Below are positions 34,263 to 44,224 of a stretch of DNA of 59,128 bases, piece after piece. This DNA is from Chitinophaga pinensis. GTDB taxonomy: Bacteria; Bacteroidota; Bacteroidia; NS11-12g; UBA9320. The first letter of the stretch is position 1. Each line of letters begins with the position of its first letter. Made by a program: the position numbers and the translations under genes. Below the pieces are notes generated by a model. That model worked only from the letters and a program-made list of their open reading frames with translations, made no database searches and was not told where the DNA came from. The stretch spans positions 1 through 59,128 of the forward strand of contig CAMDGU010000013.1 of NCBI GenBank assembly GCA_945897885.1, read 5' to 3'.

Positions 34263-34336
<74 letters not shown>

Positions 34337-34349
34337 CACCAATCACAGT

Positions 34350-34375
34350 AAGGGTTTCCAATGAAGGAGGCCCTT
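34350..34375 (+). terminator. Terminator after tRNA-Ala
   Basis: AAGGGTTTCC pairs with GGAGGCCCTT (two G-U pairs) around a six-base loop, followed by CTTTATTT. The rest of the gap to 34459 contains no repeat of the tRNA end. Confidence 0.6.
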
Positions 34376-34459: not shown

Positions 34460-36307
34460 TTATGCATATGTTTTATTTGTGAAATTATTTTGATCATTAC
34501 CAAGTTTATTATGTAAAGTAATCCAGAATCTTGAAGGGGCAAATGTTTTCCGCCAAATACCTCGTCTTGTTGGAAAAGAAAATATTTTAGATCGAATTAA
34601 AATACAGGTTTTTTTTGCTCTACTTATACATACATAACACAAACGTTGATCTTCTGCCAAAGCTATAGGATTATTTAAATGCCTGAAGTTAGGAAAGCGT
34701 TCTTCTTCCATACCAAGTAAGATAACTGCTTCAAACTCCAATCCTTTTGAACTATGACGTGTGCTTATTGTAACCTCATTGTCTGGTGTACCTAAATATG
34801 CGAACCTTTTAATACTTGCATTTTTAAGATTTCGTAATTTGGCTTCGTTTATTACGCTTTTAATATTTTCTATTTCATTTGGATAAATTTCAGATTCGAG
34901 GAGGGTTCTGTTTAAATCTATTTCTTTAGTTACAAACTCTAACCATTTATAAACATTTTCCTTTTCTTTGCTTTTGGAGAGAATATAATAAAACATCGTT
35001 TTCAATTGGATTTTATCCCAATTTTTTCGAGAATCATGATGAACATTCAATAGTCTTAACCAAAATTTAAAAAGCACGTCAAAACTTTGCATTTCTGAAT
35101 TGGTACACCATAATGCACACTCTTGTAACCACACAACCACAGCACTATTTTCAAAGTCCCATTTTGCAATAAAAAAAGGAATGTTGGTAGCTTGGAGATG
35201 CTGGGCCATCATTTGAATTTCGGGATTAGAGTTGCTTATAATACCAATTTCATTTATAGGTATGTTTTGTGAAAGTAACTTCGGTATTACTTTTTTGGCT
35301 ACAACCTCATATTGCTCTTCCATTTCTTCATCACAAGTAATAAAAGTGAAATCAGCAATATCTTCTTTTCTTTTTTCTGCTGTATATTTTGGAAATGGTG
35401 GAGTAGGCTGTAAAGCTTCAATAGAAGCATCTATTATGTGTTGAGAACTCCTATAATTGGCAGCTAAATAAATTGGTTTAATATCATCGTATCCAGTTAG
35501 TTCTTGCAAAAAATCAGGATAACCACCGTTAAAACCATAGATGGACTGATTTACATCGCCAACAGCATAAAGTTTCATTCCGGCATTAAAAACTAATTCA
35601 AGAACCATTTCATGAAGCGCCTTACCCAAATCCTGATATTCATCAACTAAAAGCCATGGGAATTGGCTTTGCAATGATTTTCTTACAAATTCTTGCTCAT
35701 GAATTATCTGTGCAGAAATATTAATAATGCTTGTAAAGTCAAGATATTCTGTTTTATAAAGTTGTCTTTCATAAATCTTCGCCGCTTTTACAATAAGTGC
35801 AGAGGAAGGTATTTGAACATTGCTTCTACCTACCAATGAGAGTGATCTATATTTATTAATTTCAACTAATTGTAAATCACGGTTATCCTCGATATTTAAC
35901 TCTTCAAGAACAGTTTGATAAATTTTATTGCTTATCTCTTTTGGAAGAATTTTGATAGGATACTTTATATTATATTGGGGATACAAATGTGCAAAGGGTT
36001 CAATCACGTGTAGTAGACTAAAACTATGGACAGTACCAACAAAATCTTTTTCGCTTGGGATATAGCCATAAAGCCTCAATCTTTTTTTAAGTTCTCTGAC
36101 AGATTCTCTGCTGAAACTAATACAGGCAAGCCCACAAGGACTTTTGATGTGACTCCTTGAAAGGGAAATTGCCTTTAAAGTTAACACTCTGGTTTTTCCG
36201 CTACCTGGACCTGCAATTACTGCAGTATTCTCCATTGAATTAAAAGCTGACTTTTGGTGCTCGTCATTCTGAATCAGTTTAAGGTCTTTATAAAACAATT
36301 CATTCAT
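34460..36307 (-). CDS. UvrD/PcrA-like SF1 helicase, GajB-like
   Basis: 615 residues. Superfamily 1A motifs in order: Walker A AGPGSGKTR (32-40), ACISFSRESVRELKKRL, VGTVHSFSL, Walker B LLVDEYQDL (220-227), GDVNQSIYGFNGG (250-262), AANYRSS, then STRHSSKGLEFEAVILLGME and LCYVCISRAKKTC. Its start lies inside the end of the upstream OLD nuclease (8-base overlap, ATGAATGA), so the pair is translationally coupled. Known: Gabija consists of an OLD-type nuclease GajA with a UvrD-like helicase GajB, in this order. GajB is typically about 500 residues, slightly shorter. Gabija membership is inference from domain pairing; a repair role is the alternative. Last gene of the sbcD operon. Confidence 0.88.
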   Translation of the reverse strand: MNELFYKDLKLIQNDEHQKSAFNSMENTAVIAGPGSGKTRVLTLKAISLSRSHIKSPCGLACISFSRESVRELKKRLRLYGYIPSEKDFVGTVHSFSLLHVIEPFAHLYPQYNIKYPIKILPKEISNKIYQTVLEELNIEDNRDLQLVEINKYRSLSLVGRSNVQIPSSALIVKAAKIYERQLYKTEYLDFTSIINISAQIIHEQEFVRKSLQSQFPWLLVDEYQDLGKALHEMVLELVFNAGMKLYAVGDVNQSIYGFNGGYPDFLQELTGYDDIKPIYLAANYRSSQHIIDASIEALQPTPPFPKYTAEKRKEDIADFTFITCDEEMEEQYEVVAKKVIPKLLSQNIPINEIGIISNSNPEIQMMAQHLQATNIPFFIAKWDFENSAVVVWLQECALWCTNSEMQSFDVLFKFWLRLLNVHHDSRKNWDKIQLKTMFYYILSKSKEKENVYKWLEFVTKEIDLNRTLLESEIYPNEIENIKSVINEAKLRNLKNASIKRFAYLGTPDNEVTISTRHSSKGLEFEAVILLGMEEERFPNFRHLNNPIALAEDQRLCYVCISRAKKTCILIRSKIFSFPTRRGIWRKTFAPSRFWITLHNKLGNDQNNFTNKTYA

Positions 36308-38309
36308 AAGTCTTCTTAACTTTTTCTATTATTGATATAATTCCCTCATTAATGTAATCAGGAACTAAGTTTGGAATTAATTCACTAGCTAACCTTTGTG
36401 CAAAACGGCCCTTGCTGATATTTCCTTCAATTTTTTTCAGGGCAGCCCAAAAATCTTTATTATCAAGTGCTTTCTCAAAATTCTTTTGCATTTCTTCACT
36501 TCCTGGTTTCAACTCATTATAAATAGTTTTTAATATATCAGTTCCTTCTTTATCTGCTTTGCCCATCATATCAACTTCTAAAGTATATTCCCCTATGAAA
36601 CAGCCATATTTCTTGAAAAGAGTTTTTTGTTCTTCTAAAGTTTTCGGAATATCTTCTTCATCAAGCAGATTTAAATCAGTAAGTAGTTTCTTAATACCCT
36701 CATTACCCCTGTAATGTGGAACATCTCCAGTCGCTAAAATATGGTAAACTCTTTTGTCCTTTTGTTCTCCCGTATCTTTATCCTTAACTTTTATAATCTC
36801 ATAATAATCTCCGTCTGAAAGCAATACCCAAGGAATACTGAGAGCATTAAGCAATTGAGCATAAGGTTTAAAATTAGTTGAATTAATATTGCAAGCAACT
36901 ATTCCATAGTTATCTAGAGACATTCTCAATAAATCTGACGCTACAGAGATGAAATATTCTTCAGTAATCCCTTCAACTAAAATTATACCTTTGCCAAAAT
37001 ATATTTCCCCTCGTTTAGCATCGATATACCTTTCAATATCTCTTTTTTCCTTTTTTTCAATAGTCAGATTCGCCGTTGAAAAAACTTTGCTAGAATTTTC
37101 AACCTTTCTTACGTGGACTATCGAATTTATTGGAGTTACTGATGCAATAAATGTAGAGTGGGAGGTAAATATAACTGAAGTATTACTATTATGAAGGACT
37201 TCACGGTAGATAAGTCTTTGTAATATGGGATGTAAATGTGCTTCCGGTTCTTCAACAGCTAGAATTGTAAAAGCTTGGTGTCGATAGTTATGTTCGTCCA
37301 TGAAACCGTATAACGCATCTGCGTCTTCTTGGTCAATTTCTTTTTTAAGAATATAATTTCCTTTAGCACTACCTTCATATAATTTTTTAAGCAGACCACT
37401 ACCGTCAAGTAGCGCTAATTCTTGGAATCGTTCTTCCTTTATAATTGGCATTACTGTTTTATCCTTTAACAAAATAAGCATCAAAGAAACATATAAGATA
37501 TTTGCCAAACCTAGGCTTAATTCTGAGACTGGACGTTGCTTAATTCCCATATAAACTTGCAAAGTGTAAAGTAATCTTTCGGTATCAATATCGAATGTTC
37601 TTAAGGAAATTTCGTTATCCGCTTGAAGACCTGATAAAGAAGCAAATCGATCTGTAAGGGTATTTTTAATATGGACAATCTCATCTAATTCCAAGATTCC
37701 ATTAGCAGCTTCCTTTAGGCCTTCTGAAATATCTTCTAAACTATCGGGTGTGATTTCGTATTGCTTTACCAACTTATAAAGTGGTGAGTTTTTGTTAGCT
37801 TTTAGTTCACGCTCAACATCTCTTAAAGCTCTGATTACAAAAATATTGATATAGCTTCGGTCTTCGTTAGTGAATTTTCGTTCTTCAGCGTTTCCCTTGA
37901 ATATTTCATATTTATAGTTAATGATATTTCCTATCTCATCTTGATTAGGAAAGTATCGGTATGTAAATTGAAGAAGCGGTGGATCTACTGATATGATAGC
38001 ATCTGAAAATTGAGCTACAAGTTTTCTATTGTGCTCGTATCCTTTTATTTCTAAAATAATTTCAATTTCTTCCCCATTTACTAACGGATCTTTTATGCTA
38101 TCATGAAAATCATCTGCTGTTAACTGGCGATCATTATCGGAAAAATCTTTATCTAATATCAATTGGATGGCTCTCAGAAAATTTGTTTTCCCGATGTTGT
38201 TTTCTCCTATGATAACCTGCTTATGATCAAGGATAACATCTACATCTAAGAAATTTCTAAAATTCTTAATTCGGACTCTTGATATATAGGGATTTTTATA
38301 CTCTGCCAT
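36300..38309 (-). CDS. OLD-family ATPase/TOPRIM nuclease, GajA-like
   Basis: 669 residues from the ATG at 38309, which starts right before the family opening YISRVRIKNFRNF; a GTG at 38387 inside sbcC would add 26 unlike residues. ABC-type ATPase: Walker A IIGENNIGKTN (34-43), signature ELSLGLANILYVS (263-275), Walker B ILAVEEPEAHLHP (349-361), H-loop FTSHST (381-386). TOPRIM nuclease: E446 in ILVEGITEE and D499/D501 in LLSDGDYYE; conserved KGRFAQRLA (633-641). All are intact. Known: class 2 OLD proteins next to UvrD-like helicases form Gabija, a nucleotide-sensing DNA nickase complex active against phages. Follows sbcC by 46 bases. Confidence 0.92.
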   Translation of the reverse strand: MAEYKNPYISRVRIKNFRNFLDVDVILDHKQVIIGENNIGKTNFLRAIQLILDKDFSDNDRQLTADDFHDSIKDPLVNGEEIEIILEIKGYEHNRKLVAQFSDAIISVDPPLLQFTYRYFPNQDEIGNIINYKYEIFKGNAEERKFTNEDRSYINIFVIRALRDVERELKANKNSPLYKLVKQYEITPDSLEDISEGLKEAANGILELDEIVHIKNTLTDRFASLSGLQADNEISLRTFDIDTERLLYTLQVYMGIKQRPVSELSLGLANILYVSLMLILLKDKTVMPIIKEERFQELALLDGSGLLKKLYEGSAKGNYILKKEIDQEDADALYGFMDEHNYRHQAFTILAVEEPEAHLHPILQRLIYREVLHNSNTSVIFTSHSTFIASVTPINSIVHVRKVENSSKVFSTANLTIEKKEKRDIERYIDAKRGEIYFGKGIILVEGITEEYFISVASDLLRMSLDNYGIVACNINSTNFKPYAQLLNALSIPWVLLSDGDYYEIIKVKDKDTGEQKDKRVYHILATGDVPHYRGNEGIKKLLTDLNLLDEEDIPKTLEEQKTLFKKYGCFIGEYTLEVDMMGKADKEGTDILKTIYNELKPGSEEMQKNFEKALDNKDFWAALKKIEGNISKGRFAQRLASELIPNLVPDYINEGIISIIEKVKKTYE

Positions 38310-38355
38310 AAAATTTGTTTTTATATTTTGCTGTAAAAAATTGTCTAAAAAATTA

Positions 38356-41300
38356 TTATCCCAATACTTCCACCTTACTCTTCCCACTAGCCATTTTACT
38401 TACCTTAATCTGTGTTGGAATGCGTTCAGTCATTTCCTGCACATGAGAAATCACACCCACTTTTCTTCCCTGGTTATGTAATCTCTCCAATGCGTCCATA
38501 GCAATGTTGAGTGTGGTAGGATCTAACGAACCGAAGCCTTCGTCAATAAACAGGGATTCTACCTTCATCCGGCTGGAAGAAAGAGAGGCAAGGCCCAATG
38601 CCAATGCAAGGGATACCAAAAAAGATTCACCACCGGAAAGCGAATAAACGGTGCGTACTTCATCGCCCATATCCTGATCTACAACTTGTAATCCCAAGGA
38701 ATCAGGGATACGTTGTATCCTGTAACGATTGCTTAACCCTTCCAAATGAATATTGGCATAACCCAGCAAAACATCCAATGTGTATTCCTGTGCAATCTGG
38801 CGAAACTTCTTGCCATCAGCGGAGCCAATAATTTCATTCAACTTGCTCCAGTTTTCGGTAATGGAAGCTTGTTTGTCAATACTATTCAGGAGGTCGCCTA
38901 TTCTGGTTTTATTGTTTTCATCTTGTTGCAACTTGAAGCTAATTTCATTTTTGGTTTGTTTGTTTTGTTCTAAATCTAATTTAGCCGTATTGTTCAATTC
39001 TGTTACTTCCTCCAATGACCTTTCAGACAAAAACTTTTGTTTATGCTGCTCGAGAAGTTGGGTTCTTTCCTTTAGGACTGAATTTGCTTTCGTAACTTCA
39101 TCATCAATGGCTTTGAGAGCTGTTTGTTCAGCCTCTATCCATTCGTTCGTAAGTAAAAGCAAGGTTAAAAGTTCTTCCTTGTTTAATTGAGCAGTAAACT
39201 TTTGATTATAACTATTGAGCCAATCCTGTATTTTTTGAGCATTAGTTTCTACTCTTAAGTCAAGATCAATAATATCCTTCTGTAATTGTTTTTTTTGAGT
39301 TATTGCTGTGGCACTGTCTAAGTTGAGTTTTTGTTGAATGGTTTTATTGCCATCGACTTGTAACTGGGCCTCTGCAATTGACTCTTTTAGCTTTACCTCA
39401 ATATGTTGAACAGATTGCCCCTCGAAAATTGTGTTGCGTTTTTCGATTAATGCCTGAATTTTTTTTTCCTGGTTAGAATGTATATCTCTTTTTTGGTTAG
39501 CATCTTCTAAAAAGCTTTTGGATTGGGTTTCCAATTCTTTTAGGGTGGCGATTAGGATACTTTGTTGGCGGCTGTCATCCTCAATTTTTTTAATATTTTC
39601 ATTCCATTTTTGAGTAAAGGATTTTATCTGTTCAAGGAAAGGCTCAGGCGAGTTTGTCCAGTTAGACATCCATGTCGAAACGCTAAAATATGGGTTGAGG
39701 TTTTGTACTATCTCGTCAAGTAAAATTGTAGCTTTTTCCTGATCCTGAAGTATCCCTTTTTGCTGCTCATGGAGTGAATCCAGGTCTCTTTTATTGTCTT
39801 TTATTTGGTTGTTAAGGCTGTCACCTGTTTCTTTAAGTTGATCGAGCTTACTTTTATCTGTTTCAAGTTGTTGTTTTTGGGTGGCATGTGCAAGAATTTG
39901 AGTTTGGAGACTCGTTTGCTTCATTTTAAAGGCTTTTAGTCTTTCTTCTATCCAGCTTGCCTTTTGCTCGTTTGGTAAAGTATGGCATTCCTTTGCTATG
40001 GAAAACTTATCCCAATTATCTTGTCTTGCACTTAGTGCTATTTTTTTAGTAACGATGTTTTCTTCCTGACTTGCAATGGTAAGATTCAGTGTTTGGCATT
40101 CCTGCTCCAAACTACTTTGCTGGCGCAAGGTTGAGAGGTAGGTGCTTTCATTTTTCGTATGTGCTTTTTCAAGTTCTACCAGTACGTTTTCCAACTGCAC
40201 GCTGTGTAAGGCATAAGGATGGTTTTCACTCCCACAGACCGGGCAGGGTTCATTATCAACCAGGCTCTCCCTTAATTTTTCAACATTTTCTGTTGCAGCC
40301 AGACGAGCTTTTTGTAGCAACTGTTCGGATGTTTCTTTCTTTATATTTTCATTGATCAAACGTTGGTTGAGCTGTTTTAAGGTTTCTTCATTGGTTTTTT
40401 GCGTTGCGACATCCTTTAGCTGTTTCTGGCGTAAGGCATCGAAATCAACCAGCAAACTGTAGAACAGTTGCCATTGTGCCTGTGCCTTTATGGTATTTTC
40501 TAAAGCAATATCCACCTCGTTTTTTTCTAAATTGATCGTTTCAATCGGGATAAGCAGGAGTTCTTTCGATTGGGTTTCGTAATTTTTTTTCAGCGATTCC
40601 CATTCTTTTTGCTTAATTTCTAAATTGGTTTCAAGTCCTGATTTTTCAATTTTTTTTGCCTTAATTTTATTCTGTACTTCGCTAAGATCTTTTGCCGAAG
40701 ATTGCAAAGCCTCCAATAGTTTTTGGGCATCTTGTAGTTTGGAAAGAATAATATCTATATTTTCGGCTATGGGTTTACGGTCAATGTTTGCCGTTTTCCA
40801 CTTTTCAAGGTTTTCTATCTCTGTAAGCAGATTATCTGATTCGGTCCTTTTATTTTGCAATATAACTCGATGTTCCTTGTTTTTTTCTGTAGCTTTTTCG
40901 GCCTCTTCTTTGGCTTTTAGCAGTTGTTCCTTTTTTTCGAAAATTATGGTGTCTAACCTTTTCGCTTCTTCCAATATAGGCGCAGCTTCAGCAAAGGATT
41001 TGTTTTTCTCTGCCAAGTTTTTTTCCGACTCCTGAAGTTTTTTCTCCTGTTCTTCTTTTTGTTTTTGGAGATCAACGATGGCTTCTTCTAGTTTTTTTAA
41101 TGTTGCATTTTTTTGCTCTTGTTGCTGTTGGTCAAGTTGAAGAGCATCTACCCAGGTTCTGGTTTTTTGCGCCTGTTCTGCTTGTTGCAGCTTTTGGTCC
41201 CGACTGACAGCATTTGTCTTAACTTCAATAGCATTGACTCTTGAAGTTTCTGCCAAAACTTGGTTTGTTTTTAGTTGGGCCAATTGTTCATGCCAGGAAA

Positions 41301-42087
41301 TTTCTTTGCTTAACCCATCAATTTGTTTTTCAAGAATCTCGATCTGGGAGTTAATTGTTATTTGATTTTCAGTTAAGGTTTTCAGTTCTTCCTCAGTCAG
41401 AGTAATGATGCCTTCTTTTCTTAGATTAAGATCCCGAAGTTGCATTTCTTCGTTTTTATATTTTTCATACACCTTTTTCGAAATTTCGGAATAGATGTGT
41501 GTACCTGTCAATTTTTCGAGCAAGGATGCCTTTTCATCCTTATTGGCTTTTAAGAATGCCGTAAAATCACCCTGAGCCAATAATACAGAACGTGTAAATT
41601 GCTCAAAATTTAGCCCTACCAGGCGTTCTATTTCCTTGTAGGTTTCTACCTTTTTGCCGGGGATAATAATATTGGATGAGATGTTCCTGAGTTCAATATT
41701 GTCAGCCTGCATACTACCTTCTGCTTTGTCTCTTGCTCGCCTCACACTCCATTTAGCCCTGTAGTTCTGTCCATCAACCCCTACAAAGTCAACTTCCGCA
41801 AATCCATCGGCTGTACCGTCTCTCAAGATACCCCGAACATCCCCTTGGCTAATGGTACTCCCTTGTACGTCATAAATTTCTATTCCGATTTCTTTTGCCT
41901 GAAGATATCGTGGTGTTTTCCCATATAAAGCAAGACAGAGAGCATCCAGTATCGTAGATTTACCAGCGCCTGTTGCCCCTGTAATGGCAAAAATTCCAGC
42001 TGAAGATAGCGGATCCTGCGTGAAATTAATTTCTGTATTACCCTCTAAAGAGGCAAGGTTTTTTATGCGTATAGCTTGTATCTTCAT
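38356..42087 (-). CDS. sbcC: SbcC (Rad50-type) nuclease subunit
   Basis: 1243 residues. N-terminal ATPase half: IRIKNLASLEGNTEINF and Walker A AITGATGAGKSTILDALCLA. Two long coiled-coil arms flank a zinc hook CPVCGSENHPY near residues 614-624. C-terminal half: signature VYSLSGGESFLVSLALALGL and Walker B SLFIDEGFGSLDP. With SbcD it forms the ATP-driven nuclease that opens hairpins and blocked DNA ends. The start is one base after the sbcD stop. Somewhat longer than E. coli SbcC (1048) through the coils. Unusually, the next genes in the operon are the OLD nuclease and UvrD-like helicase. Confidence 0.96.
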   Translation of the reverse strand: MKIQAIRIKNLASLEGNTEINFTQDPLSSAGIFAITGATGAGKSTILDALCLALYGKTPRYLQAKEIGIEIYDVQGSTISQGDVRGILRDGTADGFAEVDFVGVDGQNYRAKWSVRRARDKAEGSMQADNIELRNISSNIIIPGKKVETYKEIERLVGLNFEQFTRSVLLAQGDFTAFLKANKDEKASLLEKLTGTHIYSEISKKVYEKYKNEEMQLRDLNLRKEGIITLTEEELKTLTENQITINSQIEILEKQIDGLSKEISWHEQLAQLKTNQVLAETSRVNAIEVKTNAVSRDQKLQQAEQAQKTRTWVDALQLDQQQQEQKNATLKKLEEAIVDLQKQKEEQEKKLQESEKNLAEKNKSFAEAAPILEEAKRLDTIIFEKKEQLLKAKEEAEKATEKNKEHRVILQNKRTESDNLLTEIENLEKWKTANIDRKPIAENIDIILSKLQDAQKLLEALQSSAKDLSEVQNKIKAKKIEKSGLETNLEIKQKEWESLKKNYETQSKELLLIPIETINLEKNEVDIALENTIKAQAQWQLFYSLLVDFDALRQKQLKDVATQKTNEETLKQLNQRLINENIKKETSEQLLQKARLAATENVEKLRESLVDNEPCPVCGSENHPYALHSVQLENVLVELEKAHTKNESTYLSTLRQQSSLEQECQTLNLTIASQEENIVTKKIALSARQDNWDKFSIAKECHTLPNEQKASWIEERLKAFKMKQTSLQTQILAHATQKQQLETDKSKLDQLKETGDSLNNQIKDNKRDLDSLHEQQKGILQDQEKATILLDEIVQNLNPYFSVSTWMSNWTNSPEPFLEQIKSFTQKWNENIKKIEDDSRQQSILIATLKELETQSKSFLEDANQKRDIHSNQEKKIQALIEKRNTIFEGQSVQHIEVKLKESIAEAQLQVDGNKTIQQKLNLDSATAITQKKQLQKDIIDLDLRVETNAQKIQDWLNSYNQKFTAQLNKEELLTLLLLTNEWIEAEQTALKAIDDEVTKANSVLKERTQLLEQHKQKFLSERSLEEVTELNNTAKLDLEQNKQTKNEISFKLQQDENNKTRIGDLLNSIDKQASITENWSKLNEIIGSADGKKFRQIAQEYTLDVLLGYANIHLEGLSNRYRIQRIPDSLGLQVVDQDMGDEVRTVYSLSGGESFLVSLALALGLASLSSSRMKVESLFIDEGFGSLDPTTLNIAMDALERLHNQGRKVGVISHVQEMTERIPTQIKVSKMASGKSKVEVLG

Positions 42088-42088
42088 T

Positions 42089-43324
42089 CTAGTCCTCTTT
42101 TTGGTTTACTTCCTGCGATACCTGAGTGAAAAGTTGAATCATATTTTCCGGAAGAGGCGTATTATATTTTGATTGATAAATCTTTGAAAAAATATCTAGC
42201 GGTTGAAGTTCATTAAGCTTGTCCTGGCTTAACAATTCTGACGAGTTGGTCAAAGCCGGATATTTGGGATCAATTTTAGCCAGCCTTACTTTTTTGCCCG
42301 TCAAAGCGGTCTCTATTCTGTGCCTCAATGCTGGCTCGGGACCTTCCAATAAGACCCGTACTTCTAAATAAGGATATAATTCATTTTCCTTATCTCCATC
42401 TGGTAATTGTGCCAGTAAAGAAAGTACTTCTTGTAAAGGTTGGTGTGTTCCAGGTATTCTTTCAAGTGATACTGATAGAGGAATTTCAATTGAACGTATT
42501 TCCTTGATATTTTCTCCTTCCAATTCAAAAACAATGACCTGATGGCTGTAGTTTAACTCTGAAAAAGACATAGGAAGTGGACTGCCACAATATCTTATAT
42601 GATCTTTCGCTCCAATTTTTTGTGCTTTATGAATATGCCCTAAAGCTACATATTTGATATCATCATGAAAAGCGGCTGCCGAAATACATTCTACACCACC
42701 CATGATTAATCTTTCTGTTTTATCCAGATCTGTTATTTCTGCATTGTTTGTATGAAGGTGTCCCATGGCAATAATAGCCTGGCCATCTTGTTTTTTCTTT
42801 AGAGTATATTCAAAAGCTTCTTTATATAATGCGGCAACACCTTCTGAATAGGAATTTGAGCTATCCGCTATTAAAGGATAATCACCCATGCGTAAAAATG
42901 GTATGGCGAGACACCAGACTTTAATTATACCCTCAGCATTCTTTATTGGAATGATGAGTTTTTCGTAATCGATGTTACCTTCTGAATCTCTTTCAACTAA
43001 TCCTACTATATGAATATTTGATGATTCTAAAAGTGGCTTGGGAGATTCTAACCTTGTGGCAGAATCGTGATTACCAGCAGTAATAATTATTTGTAGATCG
43101 GGGTTTGTTTTTGTGGCTTCATTTAAAAAGGTATAAAACATTCTCACAGATACAGAAGCTGGATTGGAAAGGTCGAACACATCTCCACTGATAAGTAAAG
43201 CATTAATTTGTTCTTCTTTCAAAGTATGCACCAACCAGTTTAGGAATTGCTGATGCTCATAAGTTCGATCATATTCGTGAAATAATTGGCCAATATGCCA
43301 GTCTGCTGTATGGAGGATTTTCAT
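42089..43324 (-). CDS. sbcD: SbcD (Mre11-type) nuclease subunit
   Basis: 411 residues. Calcineurin-like phosphoesterase motifs: MKILHTADWHIGQLF (DxH), LLISGDVFDLSNP, ITAGNHDSATRLE, MGHLHTNNAE and VALGHIHKAQKI, all metal ligands present. The C-terminal part (about 290-411) is the SbcD capping and SbcC-contact region. First gene of the operon; upstream is a 566-base gap. A -7-like TAAATTTG in minus-strand orientation (43347-43340) lies 16 bases before the start, without a clear -33 box. Confidence 0.96.
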   Translation of the reverse strand: MKILHTADWHIGQLFHEYDRTYEHQQFLNWLVHTLKEEQINALLISGDVFDLSNPASVSVRMFYTFLNEATKTNPDLQIIITAGNHDSATRLESPKPLLESSNIHIVGLVERDSEGNIDYEKLIIPIKNAEGIIKVWCLAIPFLRMGDYPLIADSSNSYSEGVAALYKEAFEYTLKKKQDGQAIIAMGHLHTNNAEITDLDKTERLIMGGVECISAAAFHDDIKYVALGHIHKAQKIGAKDHIRYCGSPLPMSFSELNYSHQVIVFELEGENIKEIRSIEIPLSVSLERIPGTHQPLQEVLSLLAQLPDGDKENELYPYLEVRVLLEGPEPALRHRIETALTGKKVRLAKIDPKYPALTNSSELLSQDKLNELQPLDIFSKIYQSKYNTPLPENMIQLFTQVSQEVNQKED

Positions 43325-43620
43325 TATTTGTTATAATTTCAAATTTAATCCTGTTTTTTACTGGTTTTGGTAATTATTTCCTATTTAATTATTTATAACA
43401 ATTCAAAATATTATACTTTTAACGTGTCAATAATATTAATAAAAATATATTGTTCAGGCTTTATTTTCATTGCTTGACAAAAGTATTTCAATTGTATAAT
43501 TTTCAGTTACAATAATTATTGAAGATGCTTTTTTATGATTCGTAACTTTTTGGGTTGAACTAGTTTTAGCAAGGAAATTAGAAAAAAATATTCTTATATT
43601 TAATTCTAAACCGGCAAAAA

Positions 43621-43776
43621 TTACCGACCTATCAATAAGGTATTGGTCATTGCATTATGTAACCATTTAAGCAAAAAGCTATCTATTGATAAAAGTTTCT
43701 TTAAACCTTTAAGAACATTCTTTAATAAGTAGATGTATTTTTTCAGTTTCAATTCTTCTAAAGACTTGAACGACAT
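43621..43776 (-). CDS. Possible 51-residue small protein upstream of sbcD
   Basis: ATG at 43776, stop at 43621. The peptide begins MSFKSLEELKLKKYIYLLKN and is Lys/Leu-rich and helical, ending HNAMTNTLLIGR. No family is recognised. It sits in the 566-base gap 43325-43890 ahead of the sbcD operon, which otherwise shows only AT-rich sequence. Could be a real small gene or chance. Confidence 0.3.
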   Translation of the reverse strand: MSFKSLEELKLKKYIYLLKNVLKGLKKLLSIDSFLLKWLHNAMTNTLLIGR

Positions 43777-43890
43777 TTTTAAATATCAAATCGTCAACTT
43801 AAACATGCTTAGCCCAGTTATAAGTAATAGATGATAAAGAAAGTAAAAGAATTGGAAGATTTATTTAATTCTTGCTTTGCCCAACAGTAA

Positions 43891-44124
43891 TTAAACCTTA
43901 CCTATACTATCTTTTACACAATTCAAAAATGTTAATCTTGGTCTCGGGGCTCTAATTGTTTTGCAACAATGGTCAACTGCTCTTTCCACACTTTGCCTGT
44001 TAAAATATGGAAATGCTTCCATTATAGTATCTATAATGTATTTGCGTTCATAAGGTTCATCACATGCTACAAAATCACGATCATACTTTTTCTTGTGTTT
44101 GTCATCGACATTAATCCAACTCAT
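43891..44124 (-). CDS. Unknown 77-residue protein
   Basis: Compact and charged (MSWINVDDKHKKKYDRDFVA, then CDEPYERKYIIDTIMEAFPY and QSVERAVDHCCKTIRAPRPR), with no signal peptide or membrane helix and three cysteines. Predicted mainly helical. The family is not recognised. It lies downstream of the response regulator on the same strand (100-base gap). The gap carries the 17-base motif 77 bases before this start, the same distance class as at the two copies of the MASPLST gene, so it is a likely member of that regulon. Confidence 0.7.
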   Translation of the reverse strand: MSWINVDDKHKKKYDRDFVACDEPYERKYIIDTIMEAFPYFNRQSVERAVDHCCKTIRAPRPRLTFLNCVKDSIGKV

Positions 44125-44200
44125 AATTAAAATTTATTTTAAAACAAAGATGAGATTTAATAAAACCCTTCGATATCCGTATTTTTCACAGAATCCATAA

Positions 44201-44217
44201 GTATTTTTACTTAAGTA
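44201..44217. promoter_or_regulatory. Shared 17-base motif, copy 1 (upstream of the 77-residue gene)
   Basis: GTATTTTTACTTAAGTA, containing the perfect palindrome TACTTAAGTA. Another shared piece, ATATCCGTATTTTT, is at 44173-44186. The other copies are at 47150-47166 and 55141-55157 (GG in place of AG). Palindromes of TACTT/AAGTA type suit NarL/VraR-like regulators. Confidence 0.6.
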
Positions 44218-44224
44218 CTTGGTG

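Follow-up and report, generated by a model that had tools for sequence, protein, structure and literature searches.

The window, the whole 59,128-nucleotide stretch of DNA that was analysed, carries four genes, sbcD, sbcC, gajA and gajB, all on the minus strand within 34460–43324 (Table 1). The coordinates agree with the earlier note, which had described four minus-strand genes with a 1-base gap, a 46-base gap and an 8-base overlap. Gene names obtained from Pfam, NCBIfam and PADLOC do not conflict for any of the four, and a motif check agreed with the statement that their catalytic motifs are all intact. For gajA, the ATG at 38309 was taken as the start; the resulting 669-residue protein begins with MAEYKNPY, matching the start of its Flavobacterium shii relative. 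An alternative ORF of 695 residues with a GTG start overlaps sbcC.

Table 1. Features of the sbcDC–gajAB operon and its borders
Feature	Position	Strand	Description
tRNA-Ala(ggc)	34263–34337	+	ARAGORN; 3′ end is the border between genus-shared sequence and the variable region with the operon
terminator-like hairpin	34350–34375	+	between tRNA-Ala(ggc) and the end of gajB; consensus scan alone
gajB	34460–36307	-	615 aa; UvrD-like helicase; 8-bp overlap with gajA (ATGAATGA, 36300–36307)
gajA	36300–38309	-	669 aa; OLD-family ATPase-TOPRIM nuclease; 46 bp past sbcC (gap 38310–38355)
sbcC	38356–42087	-	1243 aa; ATPase of the Rad50 type, zinc hook CPVCG; 1 bp past sbcD (gap at 42088)
sbcD	42089–43324	-	411 aa; nuclease of the Mre11 type; leads the operon
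upstream region of sbcD	43325–44224		~900 bp, low GC, without an ORF of 80 aa

The two downstream genes match the PADLOC models for GajA (PDLC00070, 652 bits) and GajB (PDLC00117, 632 bits). These scores lie far above those of the next-best models (~220 bits), so the pair belongs to a defined Gabija subfamily. GajA also matches PF13175 and PF20469 and combines an OLD ATPase with a TOPRIM nuclease, in which Walker A (GENNIGKT), the signature (LSLG), VEEPEAH, the TOPRIM elements VEGITEEY and SDGD, and the lysine in ISKGRFA are all preserved. GajB, encoded directly downstream, matches PF00580 and PF13361 and retains the UvrD-like motifs GPGSGKT, VDEYQD and QSIYGF. A structure model of GajA based on nine aligned sequences (mean pLDDT 74.6) has solved Gabija GajA structures (8u7i, 8x5i and 8sm3) as its top matches. 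The earlier note had recognized the Gabija architecture in this OLD nuclease and UvrD helicase; by the family models the pair is an ordinary Gabija and not merely Gabija-like. The GajA subfamily of the window contains ~45 additional residues between the signature and Walker B. This insertion was considered as a contact specific to SbcCD, and the idea was dropped since the same insertion is present in a Flavobacterium GajA (G1021) that is not accompanied by sbcDC. The genome that holds the window has a second N-terminal match of AAA_15/OLD type, located where a contig ends (G000:C66:63-524).

SbcD scores 195 bits against TIGR00619 (cut-off 77.65), matches PF00149 and the SbcD C-terminal domain PF12320, and has solved SbcD relatives (4lty and 6s6v). 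Its phosphoesterase motifs DWHIG, GDVFD, GNHDS, GHLH and GHIH are intact. SbcC matches PF13476 and PF13558 and has an ABC head (Walker A GATGAGKST, signature LSGGES, Walker B FIDEGFGSLD), a long middle region and a CxxC zinc hook; it scores 438 bits against NF007600 and 270 bits against TIGR00618, both of which are below the cut-offs of these NCBI equivalog models.

The interval upstream of sbcD is probably the promoter region of the operon; the sequence TAAATTTG, located ~20 bp 5′ of the sbcD ATG, resembles the Bacteroidota −7 box. A short minus-strand ORF of ~77 codons ends within this interval near 43900. A consensus scan found no terminator-like sites on the minus strand in the junctions among the four genes; across the region the number of such sites is not above that in shuffled sequences.

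The end of gajB lies next to a boundary in the genome. Synteny with five genus relatives, as traced by blastn, ends at 34332–34338, at the 3′ end of tRNA-Ala(ggc), and sbcDC lies beyond the break. The same tRNA end is a variable site in the genus, followed by DUF4350-type genes in one relative (G004) and first by a HigBA-like pair in another (G006; both named from their sequences). A search for repeats resembling attachment sites gave none that was convincing. A search of 57 relatives, of which 6 belong to the genus, 28 to the family and 23 to the order, detected no SbcC apart from a single 28% partial match (G026); a very divergent SbcC could escape such a search, although one of this type still finds the distant ~1013-aa SbcC of Flavobacterium. 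Likewise, no A2-type GajA occurred among the relatives listed at these three levels. Because SbcC is undetected in these relatives and synteny breaks at the tRNA, the operon is most likely an acquisition, with sbcCD having arrived as part of it or alongside it. The earlier note had allowed for another history, in which a chance insertion placed Gabija downstream of a housekeeping sbcCD native to the lineage. SbcC and SbcD are indeed each found as a single copy in this genome, but a housekeeping pair would be expected at a conserved place in close relatives, whereas here sbcDC is itself past the synteny break, SbcC is undetected at all three taxonomic levels searched, and the linkage recurs in Flavobacterium in another gene order. 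A chance insertion is thus very improbable.

The closest named relative is Flavobacterium shii (L034), in which gajA, gajB, sbcD and sbcC lie on one strand. Identities to the window proteins are 65% for GajA, 60% for GajB, 73% for SbcD and 60% for SbcC, and SbcD (411 aa) and SbcC (1243 aa) have exactly the same lengths. The gene order differs: gajAB comes first, followed after 367 bp by sbcDC and, 39 bp further on, by a gene for a 1418-aa ATPase. This AAA/repeat protein (L120 10472–14728) has a weak AAA match in Pfam and none in PADLOC, and its gene is a candidate for an undescribed STAND-like defence gene. PRTRC-type genes (Prok-E2_D, ThiF and DUF932) and a transposase are located in the vicinity. 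The GajA clade of the window occurs in 3 of 349 Flavobacterium genomes, F. shii, G848 and G1021. In G848, a recombinase gene, sbcD-sbcC, an OLD gene 24 bp on, and gajA-gajB follow one another, so that OLD stands between sbcDC and gajAB (G848:C4, L184 7471–18825); directly downstream is an MksE/SMC-type (Wadjet-like) set that is unmatched by PADLOC models. With F. shii and G848 both carrying gajAB and sbcDC together on a single strand, the linkage goes beyond chance, and the possibility raised in the earlier note that sbcCD is always apart from the OLD–helicase pair in relatives can be set aside.

The linkage is not obligatory. In G1021 gajAB stands alone and SbcC was not found in the genome, and an IMG/VR scan with GajA recovered a gajAB pair of the window subfamily (GajA 44% identical) without sbcDC on an ICE-like contig with an integrase (L232 9995–13786). 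The corresponding IMG/VR scan with SbcD gave nothing useful, with relatives of at most 27–40% identity over parts of the protein. Plasmid and phage searches with GajA returned only relatives below 60% identity, and the three best-placed matches of a plasmid search with SbcD (two Bacteroidales and one Hydrogenimonas) had no Gabija, OLD or Lamassu gene beside sbcDC. A wider survey, covering the phylum with PDLC00070 and the class with A2, yielded ~27 further Gabija loci of other subfamilies, of which only one (G228) contained a recognizable Mre11-Rad50-like pair. There, gajAB is followed by genes for Mre11/YhaO-like (433 aa) and Rad50/YhaN-like (1156 aa) proteins with gaps of 13 and 9 bp (G228:C49, L115 8112–16768), behind GmrSD and ResIII helicase genes and in another class. 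This is apparently a second, independent pairing of Gabija with an Mre11-Rad50-like module, unrelated to that in the window. As some close and nearly all of the more distant Gabija loci are without sbcDC, Gabija does not need it.

SbcC was also searched for in the 349 Flavobacterium genomes, which revealed a clade of long SbcC proteins from F. shii, G1066, G817, G848 and G797. Window SbcC is ~60% identical to all five, and the G1066 copy is 84% identical to that of F. shii. Together with the window, these form a six-member cassette clade supported at 99/99 in the SbcD tree and by an SH-aLRT value of 99 in the SbcC tree. The clade is apart from the ~1013-aa SbcC of Flavobacterium, and G1066 carries such a shorter SbcC separately elsewhere (L228); the earlier note had proposed a phylogeny to see whether the SbcC and SbcD of the window stand apart from housekeeping SbcCD. 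The nearest sbcDC genes outside the clade (G832 and G1018) lie among chromosomal genes.

The partners of the cassette vary. In G1066 (L214), sbcC is followed after 41 bp by a Lamassu/ABC-3C trio composed of CTD1, MComp1 and an LmuB-type ATPase. In G797, a MobA relaxase gene lies upstream of sbcDC and an OLD gene 18 bp past sbcC, followed by an ABC-3C-like trio that was read from its similarity to G1066. In G817, no defence gene follows sbcDC, and the contig starts 300 bp before sbcD. Overall, five of the six cassettes have a same-strand gene 18–46 bp downstream: gajA, OLD (twice), the LmuA-type CTD1 and the 1418-aa ATPase of F. shii. Outside the clade, no Gabija, OLD or Lamassu gene was recognized downstream of sbcDC at any of 27 control loci (Bacteroidota and Flavobacterium, one listing comprising 25 of 37 families). 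On the upstream side, a type I methyltransferase (L226) and a PDC-S06 ATPase (L100) each occurred once as a neighbour at such loci. The difference between 5/6 and 0/27 corresponds to a Fisher p of 2.5e-5, and leaving out the F. shii ATPase, whose role is unproven, gives 4/6 versus 0/27 (hypergeometric 15/40920, ~4e-4); both values are optimistic given the shared ancestry of the cassettes.

The histories of the parts do not coincide. In the GajA tree the window groups with G848 (97/97), whereas in the SbcD and SbcC trees it lies outside all Flavobacterium copies, and the SbcC of F. shii, linked to Gabija, groups with that of G1066, linked to Lamassu. The parts must therefore have been joined more than once or exchanged, a pattern that argues against a single inherited accident and equally against a fixed four-gene system. 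The proposal in the earlier note of a system with exactly this composition could consequently not be upheld: gajAB of the same subfamily occurs without sbcCD, the cassette clade precedes OLD or Lamassu elsewhere, and the trees conflict.

The swapping of partners can also be read as a sign that sbcDC is independent cargo, a mobile pair serving repair, or defence on its own, that shares islands and a promoter with Gabija, OLD and Lamassu and does no joint work with them. The existence of Gabija without sbcDC, the presence of several systems per island in G848 and G797, and the recombinase and relaxase genes beside sbcDC in these two genomes fit such an arrangement. It is less easily reconciled with a next gene that lies 18–46 bp away in five of six cases and is every time an ATPase or defence gene, with identified partners each of which is an ATPase-based system presumed to target DNA, or with the second Mre11-Rad50-like pair joined to Gabija in G228. 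We regard independent cargo as possible but rather doubtful.

The reading we prefer, with a probability of about 0.48, is that of a defence operon obtained by horizontal transfer, in which a Gabija pair stands behind a mobile SbcD-SbcC leader cassette that would cut DNA ends for GajAB. Escherichia coli SbcCD opens hairpins and, where protein blocks an end, introduces a double-strand break 20–25 bp away from it; MRN takes Ku off ends (PMC6265447). In a Pseudomonas system, Gabija is licensed by the phage Mu Ku homologue Gam and by Exo-Erf, which hold RecBCD away from ends, and licensed Gabija then stops circularization (PMC12407980, preprint). In the proposed mechanism, SbcCD would recognize the ends of phage DNA when end-binding proteins cap them or when they form closed hairpins, and cut some 20–25 bp inward, exposing ends not yet loaded by RecBCD/AddAB-type enzymes. 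GajAB could then engage these ends, so that circularization and replication would be blocked. The two modules would thus share one substrate, the capped linear phage end, with SbcCD either making the substrate of GajAB or stopping caps from shielding it. Several observations count against such cooperation. Gabija loci without sbcDC include close relatives of the window pair (G1021 and L232) and nearly all of the ~27 distant loci; defence genes cluster anyway, and G848 and G797 contain multi-system islands; the gap between gajB and sbcD in F. shii is 367 bp; and G817 has no downstream defence gene.

The exchange of partners suggests that SbcCD is an accessory for end processing in general and not a subunit of Gabija. 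Lamassu has been suggested to respond to hairpin-forming DNA (PMC10586767), and P2 OLD has been linked to RecBCD loss and lambda red (literature quoted in PMC12407980). The proposed sensing of hairpin or end structures by Lamassu and the link of OLD to loss of RecBCD make an end-processing helper shared by Gabija, OLD and Lamassu reasonable. More tentatively, the mobile SbcCD clade may represent a portable front end for DNA-end processing before Gabija, OLD and Lamassu/ABC-3C, which would defeat phage end-capping proteins and let one nuclease pair serve several effectors. The same properties could in principle protect the host: SbcCD would trim or clear host ends and hairpins and so spare the chromosome from Gabija, OLD and Lamassu, much as reported for RecBCD, which shields DNA from Gabija. 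SbcCD does cleave the hairpins to which Lamassu may respond (PMC6265447; PMC10586767), and with sbcDC ahead of the nuclease genes the guard would be made before them; however, most Gabija loci manage without sbcDC, and SbcCD makes ends rather than hiding them, which renders self-protection unlikely.

Recent studies indicate that the state of DNA ends may be what lets Gabija and OLD distinguish phage DNA from self. With a mobile Mre11-Rad50 nuclease placed in an operon with Gabija, and elsewhere with OLD and Lamassu, it can be tested directly whether clearing capped or hairpin ends widens or restrains these systems. If the preferred reading of a leader cassette is true, a repair complex has been recruited as a shared accessory of immunity. 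Further operons of this kind could be sought as cassette-clade sbcDC followed by an ATPase gene within 50 bp. Searches of open-access full texts turned up no account of SbcCD being linked to Gabija or of an SbcCD cassette used by several systems.

When the locus is compared with known systems, it shares with Gabija the two-gene core, its order and overlap, the motifs, the best PADLOC models and the predicted GajA fold; it differs in the sbcDC genes that precede gajAB in the operon and in the longer segment of GajA before Walker B. The SbcD-SbcC pair has the domain make-up, motifs, zinc hook and gene order of SbcCD/Mre11-Rad50, but it belongs to a mobile clade attached to defence genes, with a 411-aa SbcD and a ~1243-aa SbcC, unlike the ~1013-aa SbcC common in Flavobacterium. 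Class 1 OLD genes resemble gajA in following cassette sbcDC (in G848 and G797), whereas the window gene is paired with gajB and is therefore class 2 (GajA). Lamassu/ABC-3C likewise combines a Rad50-like ATPase with an effector and is preceded by cassette sbcDC, directly in G1066 and with OLD in between in G797. The adjacent LmuA effector, middle component and LmuB that characterize it are present in L214 and lacking in the window operon, in which SbcC comes with an SbcD of its own and carries a zinc hook. In summary, all of the proteins belong to known families, and it is their combination and the swapping of partners that appear to be new.
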